Shown here one piece after another: positions 7,300 to 36,983 of a stretch of DNA of 39,644 bases; the first letter of the stretch is position 1, and every line of letters starts with the position of its first letter. Source of the stretch: a virus; IMG/VR virus record IMGVR_UViG_3300031753_000300, positions 1 through 39,644 of that record; one strand, given 5' to 3'. A program made the translations under genes and the position numbers. The notes below the pieces were generated by a model. That model was not told the origin of the DNA. It saw only the letters and a program-made list of their open reading frames with translations, and did not search any database.

Positions 7300-7901
7300 C
7301 CTGTGGTCGCCGCCGGTGCTGGCTGTGTAGGTCCGGTATAGGGCGTCCACTCGCCGCCCACCGGCGCGGGGCCCTGGCCGTTCCAGGTGAACAGTGGAGC
7401 GCTGGCCGGAGTCACCACATCCGCCTTGGGCCACACGGTCAGATCGACGGTCGTGGGATCGCCGGCGAAGGCGAACAGCACCTCGGGCGCCGGAGCCGAC
7501 GGGGGCACGGCGGAAGGGTCAGGGAGGGCTTCCACGGGAGCAGCCGGGGTCGGGGTCGCCGTGACGGGAGCGGACTCGGGAACGGCTGCCGCAGCCTCGG
7601 CGGGTGGAGGCGCCTCGGCTGGCGCCTTCGGCGCCGGCACGTCGTCCACCGGTGCCGCTGAAGCCGGTGCAGGCTGGTTGCGGGCGATGGCCGCGTGGGC
7701 CCAGAAGGCGACCTCCTCGAGCTTCGTGAGCACGAGCGAGGCCTCGCGGCCCTGCGGGAGCGCTTCGACCAACTGGATAGCCGGGCCCTCGAGCAGTTGG
7801 CGGACCTTGCCGTGCATAGCGGCCACGGCATCGGAGGAAGGCGGCCAACGGAACCGCTTCGCGAGGTCGTCGAGGATCTCGGTCGGAAGGTCTGAACCCA
7901 T
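7296..7901 (-). CDS. Possible internally started, soluble Acb2/Tad1-like product
   Basis: In the same frame as the 316-residue protein, an ATG at 7901 is preceded by AAAAGGAGA with 6 nt spacing, stronger than the site of the full-length GTG. Initiation here would yield 201 residues starting MGSDLPTEIL: the hairpin domain, the Pro/Ala linker and the beta tail, with no membrane segment. The residues EKETS just before this Met are simply the translated Shine-Dalgarno. Either two ancestral genes fused by losing a stop codon, or both long and short forms are made. Free and membrane-bound sponge forms would then coexist. Confidence 0.55.
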   Translation of the reverse strand: MGSDLPTEILDDLAKRFRWPPSSDAVAAMHGKVRQLLEGPAIQLVEALPQGREASLVLTKLEEVAFWAHAAIARNQPAPASAAPVDDVPAPKAPAEAPPPAEAAAAVPESAPVTATPTPAAPVEALPDPSAVPPSAPAPEVLFAFAGDPTTVDLTVWPKADVVTPASAPLFTWNGQGPAPVGGEWTPYTGPTQPAPAATTG

Positions 7902-8246
7902 GGATGTCTCCTTTTCGACGGTGCCCGACGAGGAGTCGGACTTGATGGACGGTCCTGCAGAGCTGAGGAGAACGTCGAGCTTTCGATGCAGCTCGGCGTT
8001 CGATGATTCGATGTGGGATTTGAGCTCGGCGGTAATGGCGGCGTTTTTGGCGAGGTGCTTGTGAATCCAGGCGTCGAAGCGCTTTCGAACCCGAGGCCAC
8101 AGTAGGTAGCTGGCGAAGGCCGCGATGCCGCCGCAGATGATCCAGGCCGAGAAGTTGGGACCCCAATTGAAGGGCTGCCAGATCGCTGCGAACCAGTGCC
8201 GCAGCAGATCGAGGTAGTGGACGAAGAGGTGGTTGGGACCGGTCAC
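7296..8246 (-). CDS. Membrane-anchored protein with Acb2/Tad1-like hairpin domain
   Basis: The 316-residue protein starts at GTG 8246, preceded by AGGAG at 7 nt; a longer reading from 8327 overlaps the neighbour. It has a transmembrane helix at about 35-54 (FSAWIICGGIAAFASYLLW), a basic flank, and a helical or coiled region to about 105. A domain at about 117-185 carries the signature ALPQGREASLVLTKLEEVAFWAHAAIARN. The pattern P.GRE.S...TKLEEA..WA.AAIARN is that of the Acb2/Tad1 hairpin proteins, phage sponges that sequester the cyclic-nucleotide signals of CBASS and Thoeris. A Pro/Ala-rich linker and a short beta tail (VLFAFAGDPTTVDLTVW) end it. A second start lies inside (7901). Membrane attachment of such a domain is unusual. 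The domain call is by motif. Confidence 0.75.
   Translation of the reverse strand: MTGPNHLFVHYLDLLRHWFAAIWQPFNWGPNFSAWIICGGIAAFASYLLWPRVRKRFDAWIHKHLAKNAAITAELKSHIESSNAELHRKLDVLLSSAGPSIKSDSSSGTVEKETSMGSDLPTEILDDLAKRFRWPPSSDAVAAMHGKVRQLLEGPAIQLVEALPQGREASLVLTKLEEVAFWAHAAIARNQPAPASAAPVDDVPAPKAPAEAPPPAEAAAAVPESAPVTATPTPAAPVEALPDPSAVPPSAPAPEVLFAFAGDPTTVDLTVWPKADVVTPASAPLFTWNGQGPAPVGGEWTPYTGPTQPAPAATTG
7907..7915 (-). promoter_or_regulatory. Internal ribosome binding site inside the hairpin-protein ORF
   Basis: The minus strand reads AAAAGGAGA, with AAGGAG at 7908-7913 and 6 nt before ATG 7901. It lies inside an open frame and decides a second start. The same element with the same spacing occurs before ATG 21610 in the capsid fusion gene. 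Confidence 0.65.
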
Positions 8247-19993: not shown

Positions 19994-21610
19994 TCAGCTG
20001 TTGCCTCGGTACAGGCTCCGGAAGTCCACGGCCGTGCCGCCGTAGATGTGCCGGATCTTGTAGGTGAGCTTGTCCGCCGTGAACACCGACCCCACAGTCG
20101 GGTCGTTCTGCACGAACAGCTCGGGGTCGACCTGGCCGTTGTAGAACCCGAGCTCGATCGTCGGGATCATGTTCGGGTCAGCGACGATGAACCAGGCCGT
20201 CTGCGAGGTGGCTGTCCAGTAATCGACGACGACCGCTGTCATCCCCTGGTGCAGGTTGGGGACGTTCCCAGCCGCAGCTCCGTCCGGAGCGGCCACCGGC
20301 AGCACGACCGAGGACTCGGTGAGCTCGAAAGCGAGCTGCTCGAGGCTCGAGTTCACGACCAGGAGCTTCGGCACGATGGACAGGATGTCCTTCGTGTCCC
20401 CGTAGGCCGTCTGCTGGCGCATCGCGGCGCGGGCAGCCGACAGGTTCCCGTTCGACAACACCGTCGCCGCGGTGTTGTTGTGCCCCGCCACGAAGAGCGC
20501 CGTCCCGTCCGGGGTGTAGATCGGGTTCGTGATGAACCAGTCCCAGACGAAGCGGTAGAGCGTCTGCGCGGCCGCGAGGCCGAGCAGGGTCGGGATCCGC
20601 TGCACCGCACGGATGTCGTCGTTGGCGATGGTCTCGAGGGTCAGGTCTTCCGTGCCACCCCGCTTGCTGATGGCGTAGGTCGCCTCCTCGTTCCCCGGCG
20701 TCGTGAGCGGCTGGTAGGGAGCGCCCTGGTTCACTCCAGGGAGCGTTCCGTAGCCGCCCAGACGCTCGATGCGCTGCGTACGGAAGTCGACGATCGGCAC
20801 GATCGAGGACACGACGCTTCGCCAGGTCTGGAGGTTCGGCTGCTGGTACATGGCCACCATCCGGCGGGTGATCGAGTCACCGAGGATGAGGTTCCACGTC
20901 CCGGACTGCGCCGACTCCGTGAGGCGCCGGGCCTTGGCCGAGTCGTAGTCACGCGCGCCGATCGACTCGCGCATCACCATCTCGGCGAGCTCGGCGCGAC
21001 CCATACCGGCAGGGTTCGTCCCGGTGATGTCGCAGAAGGCGTGGGTGAGCGTGCGATAGCCCTCGAGCTGGCGGTGGGGATCGAAGAGGGCGTCGAGCGC
21101 GCCGATCTTCTTGTCGCGCTCTTCCTTCGTCACCCTCGAGATCTCGGTCGGCGCCCGGCCACCGCCGTCCACGAGCTGCTCACGCTCGAGCTCCCGGCGC
21201 ATTTCGCCGTAGACCTGGATGTGAGAGGTCAGCTGCTTCTCGGTGAACCTCTCCGGGAGGCGCTTGGTGATCGACTCGACGAACCGGTCCTCGAGCCCGA
21301 CGCCGGAGACGGCCTCACGGATGAGCACACGTCCCATCATGGAGTCGCGCGCCACGACGGACTCCGTCGCGGCCCCGACGCCGGCAGTCTCGGTCTCGGT
21401 CTCACCCGTCTCTGAGCCGGTTCCGGTCTCGGTCTCTGTGCCCGTTTCCGTCTCGGTTCCACCTGTACCCGTGGGACTGTCCAGAAGCCGGGTCATGTCG
21501 GCCTCGTCCAGGCCGTACTCCTCGAGGACGGACTTGTGCTCTTGGAGCAACTCAGTCCGCTTCTCGGCGGTCGCGCCACGGAGCAGTTCGAGAAGCTCCT
21601 TGAGGGTCAT
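19994..21610 (-). CDS. Possible internally started major capsid protein
   Basis: ATG 21610 in the protease-capsid ORF is preceded by AAAAGGAGA with 6 nt spacing, the best ribosome binding site in the region. It would yield a 538-residue protein of delta-like domain plus capsid domain. Capsids need about a hundred major subunits per protease, so separate internal initiation would solve the stoichiometry of a fused gene. Nesting scaffold or capsid starts within protease genes has precedent (lambda C/Nu3). Confidence 0.65.
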   Translation of the reverse strand: MTLKELLELLRGATAEKRTELLQEHKSVLEEYGLDEADMTRLLDSPTGTGGTETETGTETETGTGSETGETETETAGVGAATESVVARDSMMGRVLIREAVSGVGLEDRFVESITKRLPERFTEKQLTSHIQVYGEMRRELEREQLVDGGGRAPTEISRVTKEERDKKIGALDALFDPHRQLEGYRTLTHAFCDITGTNPAGMGRAELAEMVMRESIGARDYDSAKARRLTESAQSGTWNLILGDSITRRMVAMYQQPNLQTWRSVVSSIVPIVDFRTQRIERLGGYGTLPGVNQGAPYQPLTTPGNEEATYAISKRGGTEDLTLETIANDDIRAVQRIPTLLGLAAAQTLYRFVWDWFITNPIYTPDGTALFVAGHNNTAATVLSNGNLSAARAAMRQQTAYGDTKDILSIVPKLLVVNSSLEQLAFELTESSVVLPVAAPDGAAAGNVPNLHQGMTAVVVDYWTATSQTAWFIVADPNMIPTIELGFYNGQVDPELFVQNDPTVGSVFTADKLTYKIRHIYGGTAVDFRSLYRGNS

Positions 21611-28396: not shown

Positions 28397-28512
28397 GGCA
28401 TCGTTCGTGGCAATGATCTCGTCATAGCGGCGGTCCCGAGCTGCTTTCTGGCTTCCACCTCCTGCGAACCCATCACGTTGCCCGCGGACCGGGCTATGTC
28501 TTCGAAAGTCAC
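28263..28512 (-). pseudogene. Small membrane-protein gene disrupted by two apparent 1-base losses
   Basis: GTG 28512 (overlapping the VRR-NUC stop as GTGA) opens MTFEDIARSAGNVMGSQEVE and continues to KQLG. The natural sequence then continues in the -1 frame: DRRYDEIIATNDAMDRAKAHF, then a transmembrane helix VLFCVVAIILFVGAL. Adding one G to the GGG at 28435-28437 joins the two. At the G10 run (28283-28292) another added G would give GGGAIWWLV and a TGA overlapping the next ATG as ATGA. So two single-base losses, both in G-runs, are needed to explain the data. They may be sequencing errors in homopolymers or true inactivation. Confidence 0.6.
28283..28292. repeat. C10 homopolymer tract
   Basis: Ten consecutive C on the plus strand (G10 in the coding strand) lie near the end of the disrupted membrane gene. 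It is the longest homopolymer in the window; a C9 run at 32342-32350 is the other long one. Such tracts are prone both to sequencing miscalls and to slipped-strand length change. Confidence 0.9.
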
Positions 28513-28880
28513 TTGAGCACCTCCAGGATCTTGTCGAAATCCGACGGCCGCCACGTGTAGACGCTGATGGCGCACGCGGAGGCCTGCGCGACGAGCGCTA
28601 ACGCGCCGAGCCAGTGACGCTGTGGCGTTGACACCTTGCCCTTCTCGGTCTTGAGCTCAGCGAAGATGACCCGCCGATCGCCGTTCGGCAGGCACCTGAC
28701 CATCGTGAGGTCCGGGAAGCCGGCCTGGGAATGGACCGAACTCCACGGGTGGTAGACGAGCCAGCCGCGCTGTCTCGCGAGAGCGACGACGTCACGCTGT
28801 AGATGCTTCTCGGTGACGGTCTGGTCCAGCATCTGTCGACCGGCCGAGCGCGTCACGACAACGGCCGCTTTCTGTGACAT
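28509..28880 (-). CDS. VRR-NUC domain nuclease
   Basis: This 123-residue stand-alone VRR-NUC (PD-(D/E)XK type) protein shows Glu24 (TEKHLQRDVVALARQRGW), Asp57 (QAGFPDLTMVR), Glu75 and Lys77 (IFAELKTEKGK), and Gln87 (TPQRHWL). Stand-alone phage VRR-NUC proteins cleave branched DNA in a manner like Holliday-junction resolvases. It is the first gene downstream of the iteron region, and its ATG lies at the edge of the last repeat copy. A role in replication or recombination of the phage genome fits its place beside the replication ATPase. Confidence 0.88.
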   Translation of the reverse strand: MSQKAAVVVTRSAGRQMLDQTVTEKHLQRDVVALARQRGWLVYHPWSSVHSQAGFPDLTMVRCLPNGDRRVIFAELKTEKGKVSTPQRHWLGALALVAQASACAISVYTWRPSDFDKILEVLK

Positions 28881-28882
28881 TC

Positions 28883-29071
28883 ACCTGTTCCCAAAATCGC
28901 GGAACAGGTCGGCCGATTTCGGGGGTATTGACCTGTTCCCAGCGACCATGGCTCCCAGGCACGACCGTTCCCGTTCTCGGCCCTATAGGGCCGAGAACGC
29001 GTCGGGAACAGGTCGGTGCCAGCGAGGTCGCCACCCGTTCCGGGAACAGGTGGGAACAGGTGGGAACAGGT
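28883..29071. repeat. Iteron-type region: seven copies of GGGAACAGGT in both orientations
   Basis: This 193-bp gap between the replication ATPase and VRR-NUC holds GGGAACAGGT at 29004-29013, 29042-29051, 29052-29061 and 29062-29071, a 9-base copy at 28901-28909, and inverted copies at 28883-28892 and 28931-28940. Degenerate inverted copies lie at 28964-28972 and 29033-29042. The last three direct copies are head to tail with a 10-bp period, one helical turn. A 28-bp palindrome sits in the middle. Such arrays are typical of initiator-bound replication origins or multi-site operators. I see no ORF with coding character here. Confidence 0.8.
28972..28999. repeat. Perfect 28-bp palindrome within the iteron region
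   Basis: The half-site CGTTCTCGGCCCTA is followed at once by its exact reverse complement, with centre TA. Outside it, GTTCCC at 28967 and GGGAAC at 29004 continue the dyad imperfectly, so the repeat motif is itself arranged around the palindrome. It could extrude as a cruciform or be bound by a dimeric regulator or initiator. Confidence 0.85.
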
Positions 29072-29073
29072 GG

Positions 29074-30564
29074 TCAACTCGGAGCCTCCGCCGCTACGAA
29101 GAGTGGCGAAATGGCGTAGAGCTTGGCGCCTCTCGCACCCTTGCGACACACCACGGGCGACGTCGGGTCAGCCGTAAGTTGCTCGGCGGCGTCGACGATC
29201 GTGGATTTCCGGAAGGAGAGCACGCGGGCCATCTGGGCGGTCGAGATCTCGGTGCCGAACTCCTCCAGCAGCTCGACGATCGCCGCCATGCACTGCGTCG
29301 GGCCGCCGTAGGCCTCCACGTCGTCCTCTGTGACTGCCCTCAGAGCGACGGTGAGGCGCCCGGCGAGGTTCTCTCCGAACGACGCCGACGCAACCGGCTC
29401 GCCCTCTGGACCGACGGCTCCGTGGCGGTCCTTCGCCACCCGAAGCAGGGACGATCCCGGGCGTCCCTTGGAGAACGGATGGATGACCTCCAGGTTGAAC
29501 CCGGCGTCGACCTCTCCGAGCTTCGCACCGCTGCCTCGTCCCCAGCGGCCTCTGCCCTCCTTCGCCTTCGTGACGTGATCGACGACCACGACGGCGGCGC
29601 CGGCGTCCGCCAGGGGCCTGCAGAGCTCCACCAGGAGCTTCAGCGCCTCCTTGGCCTTGTCCTCGTCGAGACCCAGCTGGTAGAGCGCGCGGGTATTGCT
29701 GTCGACGATCACGAGCGCCGGCTCGAGAGACCTCACGACGCGCAGCACGCTGTGCATCGGCAGGCCGCCCGGTCGGAAGTAGCGCAGGCGCTCGTCGACC
29801 TCCTCCGGCCGGACGCCGATCTCGCGCAGGCGCGTGGCCATCGTCCGGGGCGACCCCTCGTAGTCCAGGAACACGACCGTCCGGCCTTCTGCCATGACCT
29901 GGCGCACCGCCTCGACGGCCACCCAGCTCTTGCCGGCGCTCGGCTCTCCGTGGAGCAGCGTCACGTTCGCCGCGTAGAGGAGCGCCTTGCCGCCGGCGCA
30001 GCGCAGCAGCTCGGGCTTGATCTCGCCCCCGGGCGAACGCATGAGGCCACCGATGTCATCGGCCTCGAGCTGGCTTCGCTTCGGGTGGTCGCCTTCGAGC
30101 TCGGCCAGCCACCTGGCCTCGGCCTGCTCGTCGCCGGCGCGCGTGGCCTCGTGGAGCTCGCGCAGCGCGTGCATGCGAGACCGAGCGCGTGCGAGACGCT
30201 GGACGATCTCACCGTAGGCCCTTGCCCCAGCGCTGGACGACGTCTCCGGCTGGACCTGCAGGTGCACGAGATAGGCGGACTCGACCTCGTACTTGAGCCG
30301 TTGCAGCTCGTCGTTCACGGTCACCGCATCGACGACCTTGTCCGCCACGACCAGGTGCTCGATGGCCTCGAAGATCTGCCCGTGCTGCGGCGAGTAGAAG
30401 TCCCCGGGGCCGACGAGCTCCATCCCCGCTATCGCCGCCTCGCGGTTGAGCAGCATCGCGCCGAGCAGGGACTCCTCGGCGCCCAGATCGTGCGGTGGCG
30501 CGCCGCCCACGACGCTGAGACGCCCGCCTCCGCGGCGGGCCGCGCTCACGGCGACGACCGACAT
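29074..30564 (-). CDS. DnaB-N / RepA-type replicative ATPase
   Basis: The 496-residue protein has an N-terminal DnaB-like domain (about 22-130: DLGAEESLLGAMLLNREA, FYSPQHGQIFEAI), which normally binds primase. A RecA-fold ATPase of AAA_25/RepA type follows: Walker A GEPSAGKS (206-213), Walker B LVIVDS (284-289), and VVVVDH (325-330) as in replicative helicases. A winged-helix-like C-terminus covers about 410-490. This combination is a replicative helicase or initiator. The iteron region lies directly downstream of its stop, a plausible origin for it. Downstream genes VRR-NUC and the helicase form the replication block. Confidence 0.85.
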   Translation of the reverse strand: MSVVAVSAARRGGGRLSVVGGAPPHDLGAEESLLGAMLLNREAAIAGMELVGPGDFYSPQHGQIFEAIEHLVVADKVVDAVTVNDELQRLKYEVESAYLVHLQVQPETSSSAGARAYGEIVQRLARARSRMHALRELHEATRAGDEQAEARWLAELEGDHPKRSQLEADDIGGLMRSPGGEIKPELLRCAGGKALLYAANVTLLHGEPSAGKSWVAVEAVRQVMAEGRTVVFLDYEGSPRTMATRLREIGVRPEEVDERLRYFRPGGLPMHSVLRVVRSLEPALVIVDSNTRALYQLGLDEDKAKEALKLLVELCRPLADAGAAVVVVDHVTKAKEGRGRWGRGSGAKLGEVDAGFNLEVIHPFSKGRPGSSLLRVAKDRHGAVGPEGEPVASASFGENLAGRLTVALRAVTEDDVEAYGGPTQCMAAIVELLEEFGTEISTAQMARVLSFRKSTIVDAAEQLTADPTSPVVCRKGARGAKLYAISPLFVAAEAPS

Positions 30565-31135: not shown

Positions 31136-31651
31136 CTAGGAACCCCCTTCGTTCCAGGCCGAGAACGGCACGAGCGGCTCATCGGCCTTGACGTACAGCG
31201 GATGACGCGGCGCTCCCTCCTTGGTCGTACCGAGACACCAGGCGGAGCTACAGAACCCCGTGAGGGCACGAGAGACCGGCAGGCCCGGCATCCCTGCGTG
31301 CGCTCCCCATGCCGCGACGACGAGCGCCGGCTCGGGATCGAACAGAGCCATTGCCCAGGCGAGCGGGTTGTCGGGACCTTCAGGATCCGGGTGGTCGAGC
31401 AGATGCTTCGGCTTCGTCGCTCGCAGCGCGTAGAGGTTGATGACGTCGATCGACCGACAGCCCTCTCGTCGAGCGAAGCCCATGCAGCGTCGGATGGTCG
31501 GATCGTCCACTTCGGCGTCGGCCGTCGAGGGGTTGAGCATGATCCAGACCATCCGGTCTCCTTCGCCCCAGTAGCGGGAGAGTGTGTACCGGTAGACTCG
31601 ATCGCCGCTCAGGACCGCGGCGCGGACGAAGAGATCGGATACCTCAAGCAT
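31136..31651 (-). CDS. DUF1643 protein
   Basis: The 171-residue protein carries the DUF1643 signatures: WIMLNPSTADAEVDDPTIRRC, SIDVINLYALRATKPKHLL, VVAAWGAHAG and a C-terminal PRHPLYV. DUF1643 proteins are encoded by many phages and some bacterial defence or mobile regions; their activity is not established. I chose ATG 31651 (an ORF to 31705 overlaps the neighbour more). It forms part of the early operon upstream of the replication ATPase. Confidence 0.85.
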   Translation of the reverse strand: MLEVSDLFVRAAVLSGDRVYRYTLSRYWGEGDRMVWIMLNPSTADAEVDDPTIRRCMGFARREGCRSIDVINLYALRATKPKHLLDHPDPEGPDNPLAWAMALFDPEPALVVAAWGAHAGMPGLPVSRALTGFCSSAWCLGTTKEGAPRHPLYVKADEPLVPFSAWNEGGS

Positions 31652-32036
31652 GGCGGCTCGTTTCACTCTCGGCAGAAGACTCAGACGGGGTGTCGTAAGG
31701 CTCACGGGGCGTAGGTCGCTCCGCTGATTCCGGCTCGCTGACTCCGCTCTCGCCAGTGCCCACCCCGTCTGAGAACCCGGAGCCGTAGAAGGCGTCCTTG
31801 ATGCGCCGCAGCCTCTCCTCGGTCACCTGTCTCGACGTGTAGACCCCGTCGATCCACCGGCGCCGCAGGAAGCTGAATCGGCCGGCCGGGAAGAGGTCCC
31901 CTCGCCTGCGCAGGCGCTCCAGCTCGTCGTCGATCATCCCCTCGATCTCGAGGAGCTTGCGGGCCTGGCGCCTCGCGGTGCCTTCCGGCGGATCGCCGGG
32001 GTCGTCCACGGCCCAGGTCTGGTCCTCGGTGTTCAC
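31644..32036 (-). CDS. Unknown early protein, helical with Ser/Glu-rich tail
   Basis: The 130-residue protein starts at GTG 32036 in a GTGA overlap (the longer ORF to 32147 is rejected). It has a helical core (GTARRQARKLLEIEGMIDDELERLRRRGDL) and a basic middle (FSFLRRRWIDGVYTSRQVTEERLRRI). The disordered acidic tail is SGVSEPESAERPTPREPYD and more. No family is recognised. Coupled to both neighbours, so likely a true gene. Confidence 0.55.
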   Translation of the reverse strand: MNTEDQTWAVDDPGDPPEGTARRQARKLLEIEGMIDDELERLRRRGDLFPAGRFSFLRRRWIDGVYTSRQVTEERLRRIKDAFYGSGFSDGVGTGESGVSEPESAERPTPREPYDTPSESSAESETSRHA

Positions 32037-33445: not shown

Positions 33446-35392
33446 CTAGGCAGCCACCGCCTCGACGATCAGGCCGTCCCCCTTGTGCACCAGGTCGATG
33501 TGGGCCTTGGCCCGCTCATGCGCTTCGTCTCGGTTGTCAGCGTCGCCGGCGGGGCCGTGCTGGGAGCAGAGCACTGACCAGCCTTCGCTGGAGCTCTGGA
33601 CCGTGATGAGCGCCGTCGATGACGCCTGACGGGCGCCGTGGGCCTCGGTGAGGTGATCGGCGCGCCGGGCCTCGGCGAAGGCCATCGTGGTCGCCGGCGT
33701 GCGGCCAAGGTTGCCGCAGATGGCGCAGGTGACGGTGTAGAGAATTCGGCGCCCCTTCTTGGTCTCCTCGATCGAGACGAGGCGGCCGTCCTCCAAGTCC
33801 CGCTGTTCGTCGATCCCCTCAGCCGCGTCAGCCGCCTTCTGCTCGAGGCGGGAGAGCGGCAGCTCTATCTCGAGGCGTTCGGCGCAGGCGGAGCACAGAT
33901 CGCCACCGTCGGGATCCGGGACCCAGCTGCAGCCGCCCTCGCAGGCGTTGTCCTCCGTGCACCCGCAGACCCTGCAGGCCCGCTCGGCCGTCGCCTCCTG
34001 CCTATGGGCGACCTCCTTTGCCGCCGTAGCCCGCTTGCGGGCCGGCACGAGTCGTGGCTTCGGGCCGCCGAGCTGTTCGGTCTCGAAGGCGTCGGGTTCG
34101 TACCCCGTCTCGGCCAGGAACCCGTAGAGCAGCTCGACGGGTTGGCTCCCGTGCCATGCCGCCCAGCCCATGCGGGCCCGGAAGTGTCCGGTCGACAAGG
34201 CGGCGGCCACCGCGACCCGGACCAGCCCGTCGGCCGAGGAGTCCGCGAGCTCGTGCAGCTCGGCCGCGTCGTAGTCCGGGACGCCGAGCCCGAGCATGGC
34301 ACAGGCGGCCTTCCGCTCGTCGCTTCCGAGTTGGTCGACGAGCGCCCGGGCGATGAGCGGCACGGCCCGGGCGGCCGGCTGCTTCTTGGCGAGCACCGTC
34401 TTCAGGTGTTCCTCGCGCCGTGCGGAGGCGGCCTTCTTCGCCTTCTGCTCGTCGAGCTGCTTCTGCTCATGGGCGGAGCGCTGGCGGCGCGGCTGGGTCG
34501 CCACCTTCAGCTCCGAGTCGCCTCCCTTCTTGTGGCGCTCGGGCTTGGTGCAGACCTCGACGAGGGCCGGCTTGCCGGTGTAGCCCGTCGACACATAGGC
34601 GCCGTGGCATGGCTCCTTGCGGTGCTTGGCCTTGTCGATCTCCAGCTGCTCGCCGTAGAAGTACGCGCCGCCGCTGCCCTTCAGCGCGACGTAGGGCTTC
34701 TTGTAGCCGCGGGCCTCCTTCACGGACTTCCAACCCTTGGCCTTGATCTGCTCGGTGAGCTCGGCCGTGCGCCGGTCGCGTTCGATGCGCTCGAGTGCCT
34801 GCTCGGCTTCCCAGGACAGCTCATGGCGCTCGTCGCGCGTGCGCTTCTCCACCTGGTCCAGGACCTCTGGGTGGTCCTTCAGCTTGAGCAGGTCGGCGAC
34901 GCTGTCGATCGGGATGCCGTCCTCGCTGGCGACGCCTACCTTGGCTGCGATCTTCGGCGGGAGCTCGAGCACGCCGAGCGACTTCGACACCGTCGCCTGG
35001 CTGACGCCGACGAGCTCTGCGATCTGCTTCTGCGTCTTCCCGGCGTCGGCGAGCTGCTTGAACCCTCGGGCCCGCTCGAGGGGCGTCAGGTCCTTGCGCT
35101 GGATGTTCTCCACCATGAACGCACCGAGGCGCCGCTCGTCGTCGAGCTCGCCGACGTCGATCGCCGGGACCTCCTCGAGCCCCGCCGCGATCGCGTGCGC
35201 AAGCCGCCGGGCCCCGGCGACGAGGATCCAGCCCTGGTCGCCGGCCCACCGAAGCAGCAGCGGCTGGAGGATCCCGTAGCTCTTGATCGACTGGACCATG
35301 TCGGCGTCGATGGCGATCTTCTGCCGAGGGTTGTCGGGGTCGTGGTCGATGTCACCGACCGCGACCTGACGGACGATCTGTTCTGTGCTCAT
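33446..35392 (-). CDS. ParB/Spo0J-type DNA-binding protein with C-terminal zinc finger
   Basis: The 648-residue protein has a ParB N-terminal domain (about 6-105: [65 protein letters not shown]). In place of the canonical GERRxRA box it has GARRLAHA (60-67). A helix-turn-helix follows (about 119-142, [20 protein letters not shown]). The long middle is Lys/Glu-rich. Near 475-515 comes a Cys cluster ([23 protein letters not shown]) of the kind shared by many phage DNA-modification proteins. A role in plasmid-like partition, in transcription control or in DNA modification is possible. Starts at ATG 35392 in an ATGA overlap. Confidence 0.8.
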
Positions 35393-36390
35393 GACGCCGC
35401 CGTCTCGGTGACCGCGAGCATCCGCTCGAGGAGGTCGATCGCAGAGGCCTTCGCTGACTCGATCTCAGGGCCAAACTTCTCTCTGATAGCAGCCTTGAAC
35501 TTGGGCTTGAGCGCGTCGTAGACCGCGTTGCGTAAGCGCAGCCACCTCTCGGAGGCCTCCGCGGCCCACGCGGCCCACGCGGCCTCCGCTTCCCACGCGG
35601 CCCCCGCGGCCCCCGCGGCCCCCGCGGCCCCCGCGGCCCCCGCGGCCCACGCGGCCCCCGCGGCCCCCGCGGCCCCCGCGGCCCACGCGGCCCCCGCGGC
35701 CCACGCGGCCCCCGCGGCCCCCGCGGCCCCCGCGGCCCCCGCGGCCCCCGCGGCCCACGCGGCCCCCGCGGCCCCCGCGGCCCCCGCGGCCCCCGCGGCC
35801 CCCGCGGCCCACGCGGCCTCCGCGGCCTCCGCGGCCTCCGCGGCCCACGCGGCCCACGCGGCCCCCGCGGCCTCCGCGGGAACGCTCTTCTTGAGCTCCT
35901 CCACGAAGAGGACCTTGAACCTCGCGATCTTCTCGTTCCGGCGCGCGTAGGCGGCGTCCCGCGCGGTCGCCATGACGTTGCGGATGTGAGCCCAAGATTT
36001 CGGATCGTTCACGACGAGCAGTTGCTCGACCGTCCTCGCCTGATCGTCGAGTCCCGCGGCGCGCAGCCACAGCGGCACCCATTTGTGCACCAACCAGTCG
36101 GCCGCCATCCAACCCCGGGCGTCCTCCTGCTCCTGCGTTCCCCTCGTGCCGACCAGGCGCGCGATGTAGGGCCTGAGCTCCTGACGCCCGACGTCGTCGA
36201 GGTCGTCGTTCCACCGGCGCATGAACGCCGCGAGGATCGGGCTCGCGCAGTTCGGGCGGTCCGACCACTCCTCGCCGGCGAGGTAGGCGACGGCCTCCAT
36301 GATGCACGCCCCGTCGTCAGGGCCGCTGTGGCCCCCCGATTCCAGGTGCCAGCCGAGAACGACGGGTAGGCGGTCTTCGAGAATTGTCAC
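35389..36390 (-). CDS. Ala/Gly/Trp triplet-repeat protein
   Basis: The 333-residue protein starts at GTG 36390 with AGGAG 8 nt upstream (also GTGA overlap). The N-terminal half (about 1-165) is conserved in phage proteins: [39 protein letters not shown], then [28 protein letters not shown]. About 105 residues of tandem three-residue units (AAG, AAW, AAE) follow, then a helical C-terminus ([31 protein letters not shown]). Members of this family with AAW-type repeats occur in many actinophages; the function is unknown. The repeat may form a long helix with a Trp stripe every 18 residues. Confidence 0.7.
35556..35880 (-). repeat. 9-bp tandem repeat coding for Ala-Ala-Gly/Trp/Glu
   Basis: About 35 units of 9 bp on the plus strand, gcggccccc, gcggcccac or gcggcctcc, give AAG, AAW and AAE. 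Trp recurs mostly every sixth unit (54 bp), a higher-order period. The stretch is almost pure G+C and prone to slippage, so its length in this sequence should be treated with care. Confidence 0.9.
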
Positions 36391-36983
36391 GCTGCGGTCT
36401 CCTCTTCTATTCGTGCCGAATGACGGTTGAGCAGACGCTCGAGGCGTTGGCGCTCGCGTTTGGTGAGAGGGCGGTGCTCGGAGAACATCGCCCGCCGGCG
36501 CAGCACGGCTAGCTCGAGCTCCTGGCGCAGGTCCCGGCAGTCGAGGGCTGCGGCCACGAAGGCAGCAGCAAGGGGCACGAGCAGGGCGGTCAGGCAGACG
36601 AGCCACAGGGGCGGCCAGAAGGTGATGCACATCACCTCGGCCAGCACGAGCAGCCCAAGAGCCAGCTGGCTGAAAAAGCGCCGGTCGCGGCAGCCCATCC
36701 GCAGCCCCTCGACCGGTGGAATGCCGTCGGGAGAGGTTCTCCTGAGACTCGGTTGGAAGCGGGCGGAGGAGGTATCTTCCACCGAACCGGTCGAGGAGCT
36801 GCGCATGGGCCGATTCACGACCGCTCCAGGAAGAGCGCCGGCAGGGCGACGACGCGGCCCGGGCGACGGGTAGTCGATGAACCCGAGAGAGCGCAGCGCG
36901 CCGAGGTTGTTGCCGTACACGCGCTCGACAGGCTCGAAGCCCCCACTCGGTCGGGGCCCCAGGCGCAGCGGTTGGTTCTTCAC
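36387..36983 (-). CDS. Membrane protein of unknown function
   Basis: The 198-residue protein has an N-terminal basic, Pro/Gly-rich soluble part (LRLGPRPSGGFEPVERVYGNN). Two adjacent transmembrane helices follow (about 105-150: LALGLLVLAEVMCITFWPPL then VCLTALLVPLAAAFVAAALD), then a charged C-terminal helix region ([21 protein letters not shown]). It starts at GTG 36983 (GTGA overlap). A membrane protein in the early operon may relate to superinfection exclusion or host takeover, but there is no direct support. Confidence 0.6.
   Translation of the reverse strand: MKNQPLRLGPRPSGGFEPVERVYGNNLGALRSLGFIDYPSPGPRRRPAGALPGAVVNRPMRSSSTGSVEDTSSARFQPSLRRTSPDGIPPVEGLRMGCRDRRFFSQLALGLLVLAEVMCITFWPPLWLVCLTALLVPLAAAFVAAALDCRDLRQELELAVLRRRAMFSEHRPLTKRERQRLERLLNRHSARIEEETAA

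Follow-up and report, generated by a model that had tools for sequence, protein, structure and literature searches.

A candidate phage replication origin in an iteron array behind the gene of a DnaB/RepA-like ATPase with a C-terminal winged helix

An array of 10-bp iterons directly behind the replication ATPase gene of a phage is, in our confident assessment from sequence and models, a replication origin that would be bound by the winged helix of the ATPase itself. The array lies in a 39,644-base virus record, the whole of which was analysed and is referred to here as the window. The original prediction had proposed an origin, and this reading is strongly supported by sequence comparison with relatives. 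The repeat word changes together with the C-terminal DNA-reading domain of the ATPase, and the enzyme therefore probably finds its own origin. DnaB-type ring helicases normally require a separate initiator and loader. If the reading is correct, a DnaB/RepA-like ATPase that is fused to an origin-reading domain and has the origin joined to its gene would make up a compact and portable replication module; a simple rule for finding the origins of many uncultured phages would follow, as would a natural data set on a DNA-recognition code. Among the openly licensed papers searched, none on the window phage was found.

The iteron array and its palindrome

The word GGGAACAGGT is present in six exact copies in the window, all of them within positions 28883-29071, compared with 0.06 expected under a first-order Markov model. 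Together with one single-mismatch copy these form the seven good repeats, in both orientations, that had been described at the outset. A search of the complete 39,644-base record for the 10-mer, as had been proposed, returned no exact copy outside the array, and just two single-mismatch copies beyond it, at 21461 and 31888; the word is thus not dispersed. The three copies nearest to the ATPase gene (29042-29071) are arranged head to tail with an exact 10-bp period, again as predicted, and a two-mismatch copy beside them agrees with the array layout of relatives. The non-coding gap in which the array had been placed, between the replication ATPase and nuclease genes, measures 193 bp from the ATPase stop codon (29074) to the VRR-NUC start codon (28880) and is fully occupied by the array; both flanking genes are encoded on the minus strand. 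The VRR-NUC-like gene is the downstream neighbour of the array and lies outside the core module. The features of the locus are as follows (distances are counted from the ATPase stop codon).

28509..28880, minus strand: VRR-NUC-like nuclease gene (Pfam VRR_NUC 5.7e-5, just under the cut-off; annotated in PHROG as endonuclease / Holliday junction resolvase)
28883..28892, minus strand: iteron, exact, stop+181
28900..28909, plus strand: iteron CGGAACAGGT, one mismatch, stop+164
28931..28940, minus strand: iteron, exact, stop+133
28951..28965, minus strand: 15-bp element GTCGTGCCTGGGAGC, identical in the closest relative, L143, although the surrounding iterons changed
28972..28999, no strand: 28-bp perfect palindrome CGTTCTCGGCCCTATAGGGCCGAGAACG with central CCCTATAGGG, position conserved in L143; candidate melting or cruciform site
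29004..29013, plus strand: iteron, exact, stop+60
29033..29042, minus strand: degenerate inverted iteron CGGAACGGGT, two mismatches, position conserved in L143
29042..29051, plus strand: iteron 3, exact
29052..29061, plus strand: iteron 2, exact
29062..29071, plus strand: iteron 1, exact, 2 bp past the ATPase stop codon
29074..30564, minus strand: replication ATPase, 496 aa, proposed self-recognising initiator (Pfam DnaB N-domain 5e-20 and AAA_25 1e-12)
29107..29313, minus strand: C-terminal winged helix, residues 418-486, proposed iteron reader (AlphaFold model; co-variation with the iteron)
29323..30024, minus strand: RecA/RepA/KaiC-type ATPase core, residues 181-414 (profile and structural matches)
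30199..30498, minus strand: DnaB-type N-terminal domain, residues 23-122 (Pfam; structural match)

The array is GC-rich and has no evident AT-rich unwinding stretch except the TATA core of the palindrome; within the window, GC skew does not switch sharply at the array. The palindrome claimed by the original prediction is indeed there, and no other perfect palindrome in the window exceeds 16 bp. Folded as DNA it yields a stable hairpin (-17.2 kcal/mol, z -5.6). GC-rich palindromes with related centres also lie between the iteron blocks of several other lineages and are absent in others; the centre reads CTATAAG in L172, L185 and L206, CTTTAG in L202, L205, L213 and Streptomyces phage Dagobah, and CCTAAGG in L168. 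The element probably serves DNA melting or forms a cruciform; the alternative is a terminator. A palindrome that merely terminates transcription of the ATPase mRNA, unconnected with the iterons, would account for a stable hairpin, with a GC-rich stem of 12 bp and a TATA loop, located just behind the ATPase gene; however, the hairpin is not accompanied by a T-run, and palindromes centred on CTATAG, CTATAAG or CTTTAG recur at similar positions between the iterons of several lineages, which makes this explanation rather unlikely.

Elsewhere in the window, the early block includes a DUF1643 gene (31136-31705, minus strand; Pfam 2e-33). A gene at 35389-36630 (minus strand) encodes a protein with a long AAGAAW/GAAGAA repeat tract that is weakly collagen-like in Pfam, and a dense DNA repeat of the CGGGGGCCGC type lies within it around 35500-35800.

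The ATPase and its C-terminal winged helix

The window ATPase was modelled with AlphaFold from an alignment of 51 sequences (mean pLDDT 87.5); a model from the single sequence reached a pLDDT of 44 and was discarded. The N-terminal domain of the model matches that of Mycobacterium tuberculosis DnaB (2r5u; Z 20.6, rmsd 1.4, 135 residues aligned). Profile matches of the core include DnaB, RecA, KaiC and RSF1010 RepA (1g8y, E 1e-9), and structure comparison places the modelled core with KaiC/RecA/DnaB folds. Phage DnaB proteins match DnaB_C (PF03796) at 1e-44 or better, whereas a Pfam search of the window ATPase gave no match to this family at E 0.01. The lack of DnaB_C and the added winged helix set the protein apart from a plain DnaB, and it stands outside the SF3 group (D5/DUF927/VapE-type) because its motor is an AAA_25/RecA-type core. 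A primase domain was not found in it.

In the model, the winged helix comprises helices 421-436, 442-448 and 453-465 and strands 471-475 and 481-485. The recognition helix (453-465) has R-K just ahead of it and the wing carries the motif GARGAK. In relatives, this domain gives weak MarR_2/HTH matches.

Recurrence and re-coding of the array in relatives

The closest relative, L143, has an ATPase 52% identical to that of the window; VRR-NUC is again its neighbour and a ParB-like gene resides on the same contig. Measured from the stop codon, the window sites are found at +2, +12, +22, +31 (inverted), +60, +133 (inverted), +164 and +181 (inverted), with the palindrome at +74; those of L143 include +1, +22, +31 (inverted), +60, +134 (inverted), +166 and +182 (inverted), with the palindrome at +73. 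Seven of eight iteron positions thus agree within 2 bp and in orientation, compared with a maximum of five matching positions in 20,000 trials of random placement. The word in L143 is GGGCCGCGGT instead of GGGAACAGGT, its core having changed in concert across the sites. Since the two regions are homologous, this concerted change, and not the shared positions, is the key point: a geometry that is kept while the word is switched argues for a co-evolving binding protein. Conservation of the array beside the same neighbouring genes had been named as a refutation test, and in L143 it holds for the geometry but not for the word itself.

The window word is also found in more distant company. Pattern scans of viral contigs identified clusters of GGGAACAGGT in divergent phages. 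The array is situated at, near or overlapping the end of an AAA_25-type ATPase gene in ten lineages: the window, L010, L013, L015, the L018/L036 group, L020/L049, the L021/L029/L035 group, L037, L062 and L074. Apart from the window and L015, a Mobilicoccus genome, these are phage lineages that span 49-70% GC. Their ATPases have the core in common, and most of them the winged helix, while the N-terminal parts vary (DnaB-N, PriCT, or none recognised). An R-K ahead of the recognition helix together with a G-x-R-G/N-A/S-K wing is seen in the window, L010, L020, L029/L035, L036 and L037, and L062 retains the R-K; L013, L015 and L074 have GGGAACAGGT without a clear R-K/GxRGAK winged helix. The array word may resemble the P4 iteron, presumably GGTGAACAG.

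The exact tandem 20-mer is rare, with occurrences in seven viral contigs and in just 2 of 84,980 species genomes, in one of which (L014) it falls inside a coding gene. Gapped patterns gave 90 direct-pair matches, compared with 31 in a reversed control, and 51 convergent pairs; many of the direct-pair matches resemble coding repeats and were set aside. Of 396 actinobacterial genomes one contained the word pair, and this was the already known case. BLASTN of the tandem word against phages returned irrelevant matches only, a literature search for the 10-mer retrieved only unrelated sequences, and the repeats of L053 seem to be a different, short-repeat phenomenon. The alphaproteobacterial LexA box, presumably GAAC-N7-GAAC, was set aside because the spacing here is N6.

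Several occurrences of the word deserve separate mention. In L015 (Mobilicoccus pelagius, 7802-7950), the 3' end of an AAA_25 gene overlaps the GGGAACAGGT array and a CTCTATAGAG palindrome, and a serine recombinase gene is located a few kb away; the locus is probably an integrated mobile element. L008 (2359-2523) has GGGAACAGGT mixed with GGTGGGAAC variants behind a VapE-type primase-helicase gene, the one case of a VapE-type protein beside such repeats, and an unrelated motor may therefore read the word as well. Between structural genes of a phage of about 68 kb (L012:11600-11700 and L007:1900-2010) lies a perfect triple ACCTGTTCCC array with an inverted copy, flanked by the direct repeat GTGATGACGTATGACGCTCA and far from AAA_25 genes; it is possibly a transposed or captured origin or binding site. 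In the 69-kb phage L011 (106-135), three head-to-tail GGGAACAGGT copies precede a collagen-like structural gene, and a DnaB-like protein is encoded elsewhere. The DnaB-like proteins of L007/L012 and L011 give weak AAA_25 matches.

Other words occupy the same place in a wider set of relatives. A profile scan added 80 relatives of the ATPase, and the resulting survey covered 97 proteins, which fall into 34 lineages at 70% identity. A dense array, in which a single exact 8-mer occurs four or more times around the end of the gene, is present in 24 of the 34 lineages; the same stretches after shuffling usually contain two to three copies, with a maximum of five, and upstream windows in the loci mostly two to three. 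About 10 of the 34 lineages have no clear array by this simple 8-mer count. These lineages weigh against the origin reading, as do the poor motif fit of L013, L015 and L074, the structural-region arrays of L007/L012 and L011, all remote from AAA_25 genes, and, in the window array, the lack of a sharp GC-skew switch and of a further AT-rich stretch. The words are GGGCCGCGGT in L143, GGGACGAGGT in L149, L199 and cyanophage MinS1, GGGGAACGGT in L151, GGGGCGAGGT in L165, GGGACACGGT in L187, GGGAAACAGT in L185, GCGGAACAGT in L205, GCGGAACGGT in L206, TAGGTTCGGT in L202, AAGTCGGTCA in L172, and TGCCGATAGG in L218 and phage P8625; many of them retain GGG and GGT edges around a variable core. The paper on MinS1 classes its ATPase under 'regulation' and leaves the repeats unmentioned (PMC8876498). 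In phages MrSmee and Murphy, two cases in which a canonical DnaB_C helicase has no domain beyond the core, no array was found behind the helicase gene. In Dagobah, a cultivable phage with the same array design (L225:3650-3900), GAACCGGT repeats form the 3' end of a 'RadB-like' gene and are followed by a CGGTCTCTTTAGAGACCG palindrome. In the large lineage L157 (3300-3604), the array extends into the ATPase gene at its 3' end, so that the iterons there encode LTDLTD-type repeats.

With moderate confidence, we take these widespread phage DnaB/RepA-like ATPases to be self-loading initiators with a fused origin-reading winged helix, whose iteron word has been repeatedly re-coded at fixed geometry (GGG-core-GGT, with cores AACA, CCGC, ACGA, GAAC, ACAC and GCGA), giving separate origin specificities in related phages.

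The same survey bears on the possibility that the array is a multi-site operator, through which the ATPase or another early protein controls transcription at the ATPase/VRR-NUC junction while replication starts elsewhere. Initiator iterons often also autoregulate, the two genes that flank the array are co-directional, and the winged helix of relatives is weakly similar to MarR regulators. Yet the array follows the ATPase gene instead of occupying its promoter, a scan for sigma70-like promoters, which does not cover all promoter types, found none, and divergent phages retain arrays behind this gene, which reach into its 3' end in Dagobah, L157 and L015. An operator role in place of an origin is accordingly improbable. 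An operator solely for the VRR-NUC unit, as had been suggested early on, is unlikely because similar arrays trail the ATPase gene in many divergent phages.

Co-variation, proposed mechanism and known systems

As judged from sequence distances, the repeat word tracks the winged helix of the ATPase and not its core. With the core held constant, the distance between words correlates with that between winged helices in partial Mantel tests, both over 33 proteins (r=0.52, p=2e-4) and over 23 lineages (r=0.43, p=6e-4), the permutation leaving some effects of shared ancestry; with the winged helix held constant, the correlation of word with core is negative (r=-0.42 and -0.35, respectively; p=1). The words in these tests were the analyst's consensus calls, and their comparison allowed shifts and both strands. 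L185, L205, L206 and L202 illustrate the pattern best, with cores that are 87-99% identical, winged helices that are 37-73% identical, and words that differ.

The ParB-like and zinc-cluster proteins, first put forward as binders, have thus found no support, and the best candidate is the ATPase winged helix, whose sequence tracks the word. Of 14 array-bearing records, some of which may be fragments, just 3 gave a ParB_N match. That the array is a centromere-like (parS) site cluster serving the ParB-like protein (33446-35392) is very improbable: the gene of a ParB_N + HTH protein does lie 3 kb from the array, and the L143 contig also encodes a ParB-like protein, but parS is palindromic and unlike the asymmetric 10-bp word, the word follows the ATPase winged helix, and most array-bearing records, possibly fragments, lack a ParB_N match, including the 50-kb record L010 with the same word.

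For the origin reading, the following mechanism can be envisaged. The winged helices of several ATPase subunits would bind the 10-bp iterons, and the RecA-type cores of the bound subunits would join there to form a hexameric ring. Opening of the DNA would follow, with the TATA-containing central palindrome as the probable site, and the ring would unwind outward, such that initiator and replicative helicase are combined in a single, self-loading protein.

Comparable arrangements are known from other replicons. In SaPI Rep and SCCmec Cch2, the helicase gene is directly followed by short direct repeats, as the ATPase gene is in the window, and, as is proposed for the window, a C-terminal domain is the binder and a self-loading initiator is the model; experiments support the reading of these adjoining repeats by the C-terminal domain, and the Cch2 region has inverted repeats beside direct ones, again as in the window (PMC7581432). 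These systems differ in having DUF927 / D5-type helicases and in belonging to pathogenicity islands and cassettes, whereas the window has a RecA/DnaB-like motor with a DnaB N-domain in a phage setting. P4 alpha, as described in PMC4234260, resembles the proposed window ATPase in that its winged helix binds origin repeats and the same protein unwinds, but it has a Toprim primase and another helicase type. Repeats 3' of the gene, the first of them 2 bp past the stop, and a C-terminal winged helix in the model are the features that the window shares with the SaPI Rep / Cch2 / P4 alpha type. In pRN1, ORF904 likewise ends in a winged helix and an essential stem-loop origin lies just 3' of the replication gene; the protein is an SF3 helicase with prim-pol, however, and the origin has no iterons (PMC4234260). 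RSF1010 RepA has a RecA-type hexameric helicase core, to which the window protein is related by the 1g8y profile match, and works with an iteron origin, but in that system reading the iterons falls to another protein, RepC, and the primase too is a protein of its own (PMC4234260, PMC8965321). The replisome organisers of the lactococcal phages TP901-1 and Tuc2009, as described in PMC8965321, are phage initiators that bind direct repeats linked to their own gene, in this case inside it.
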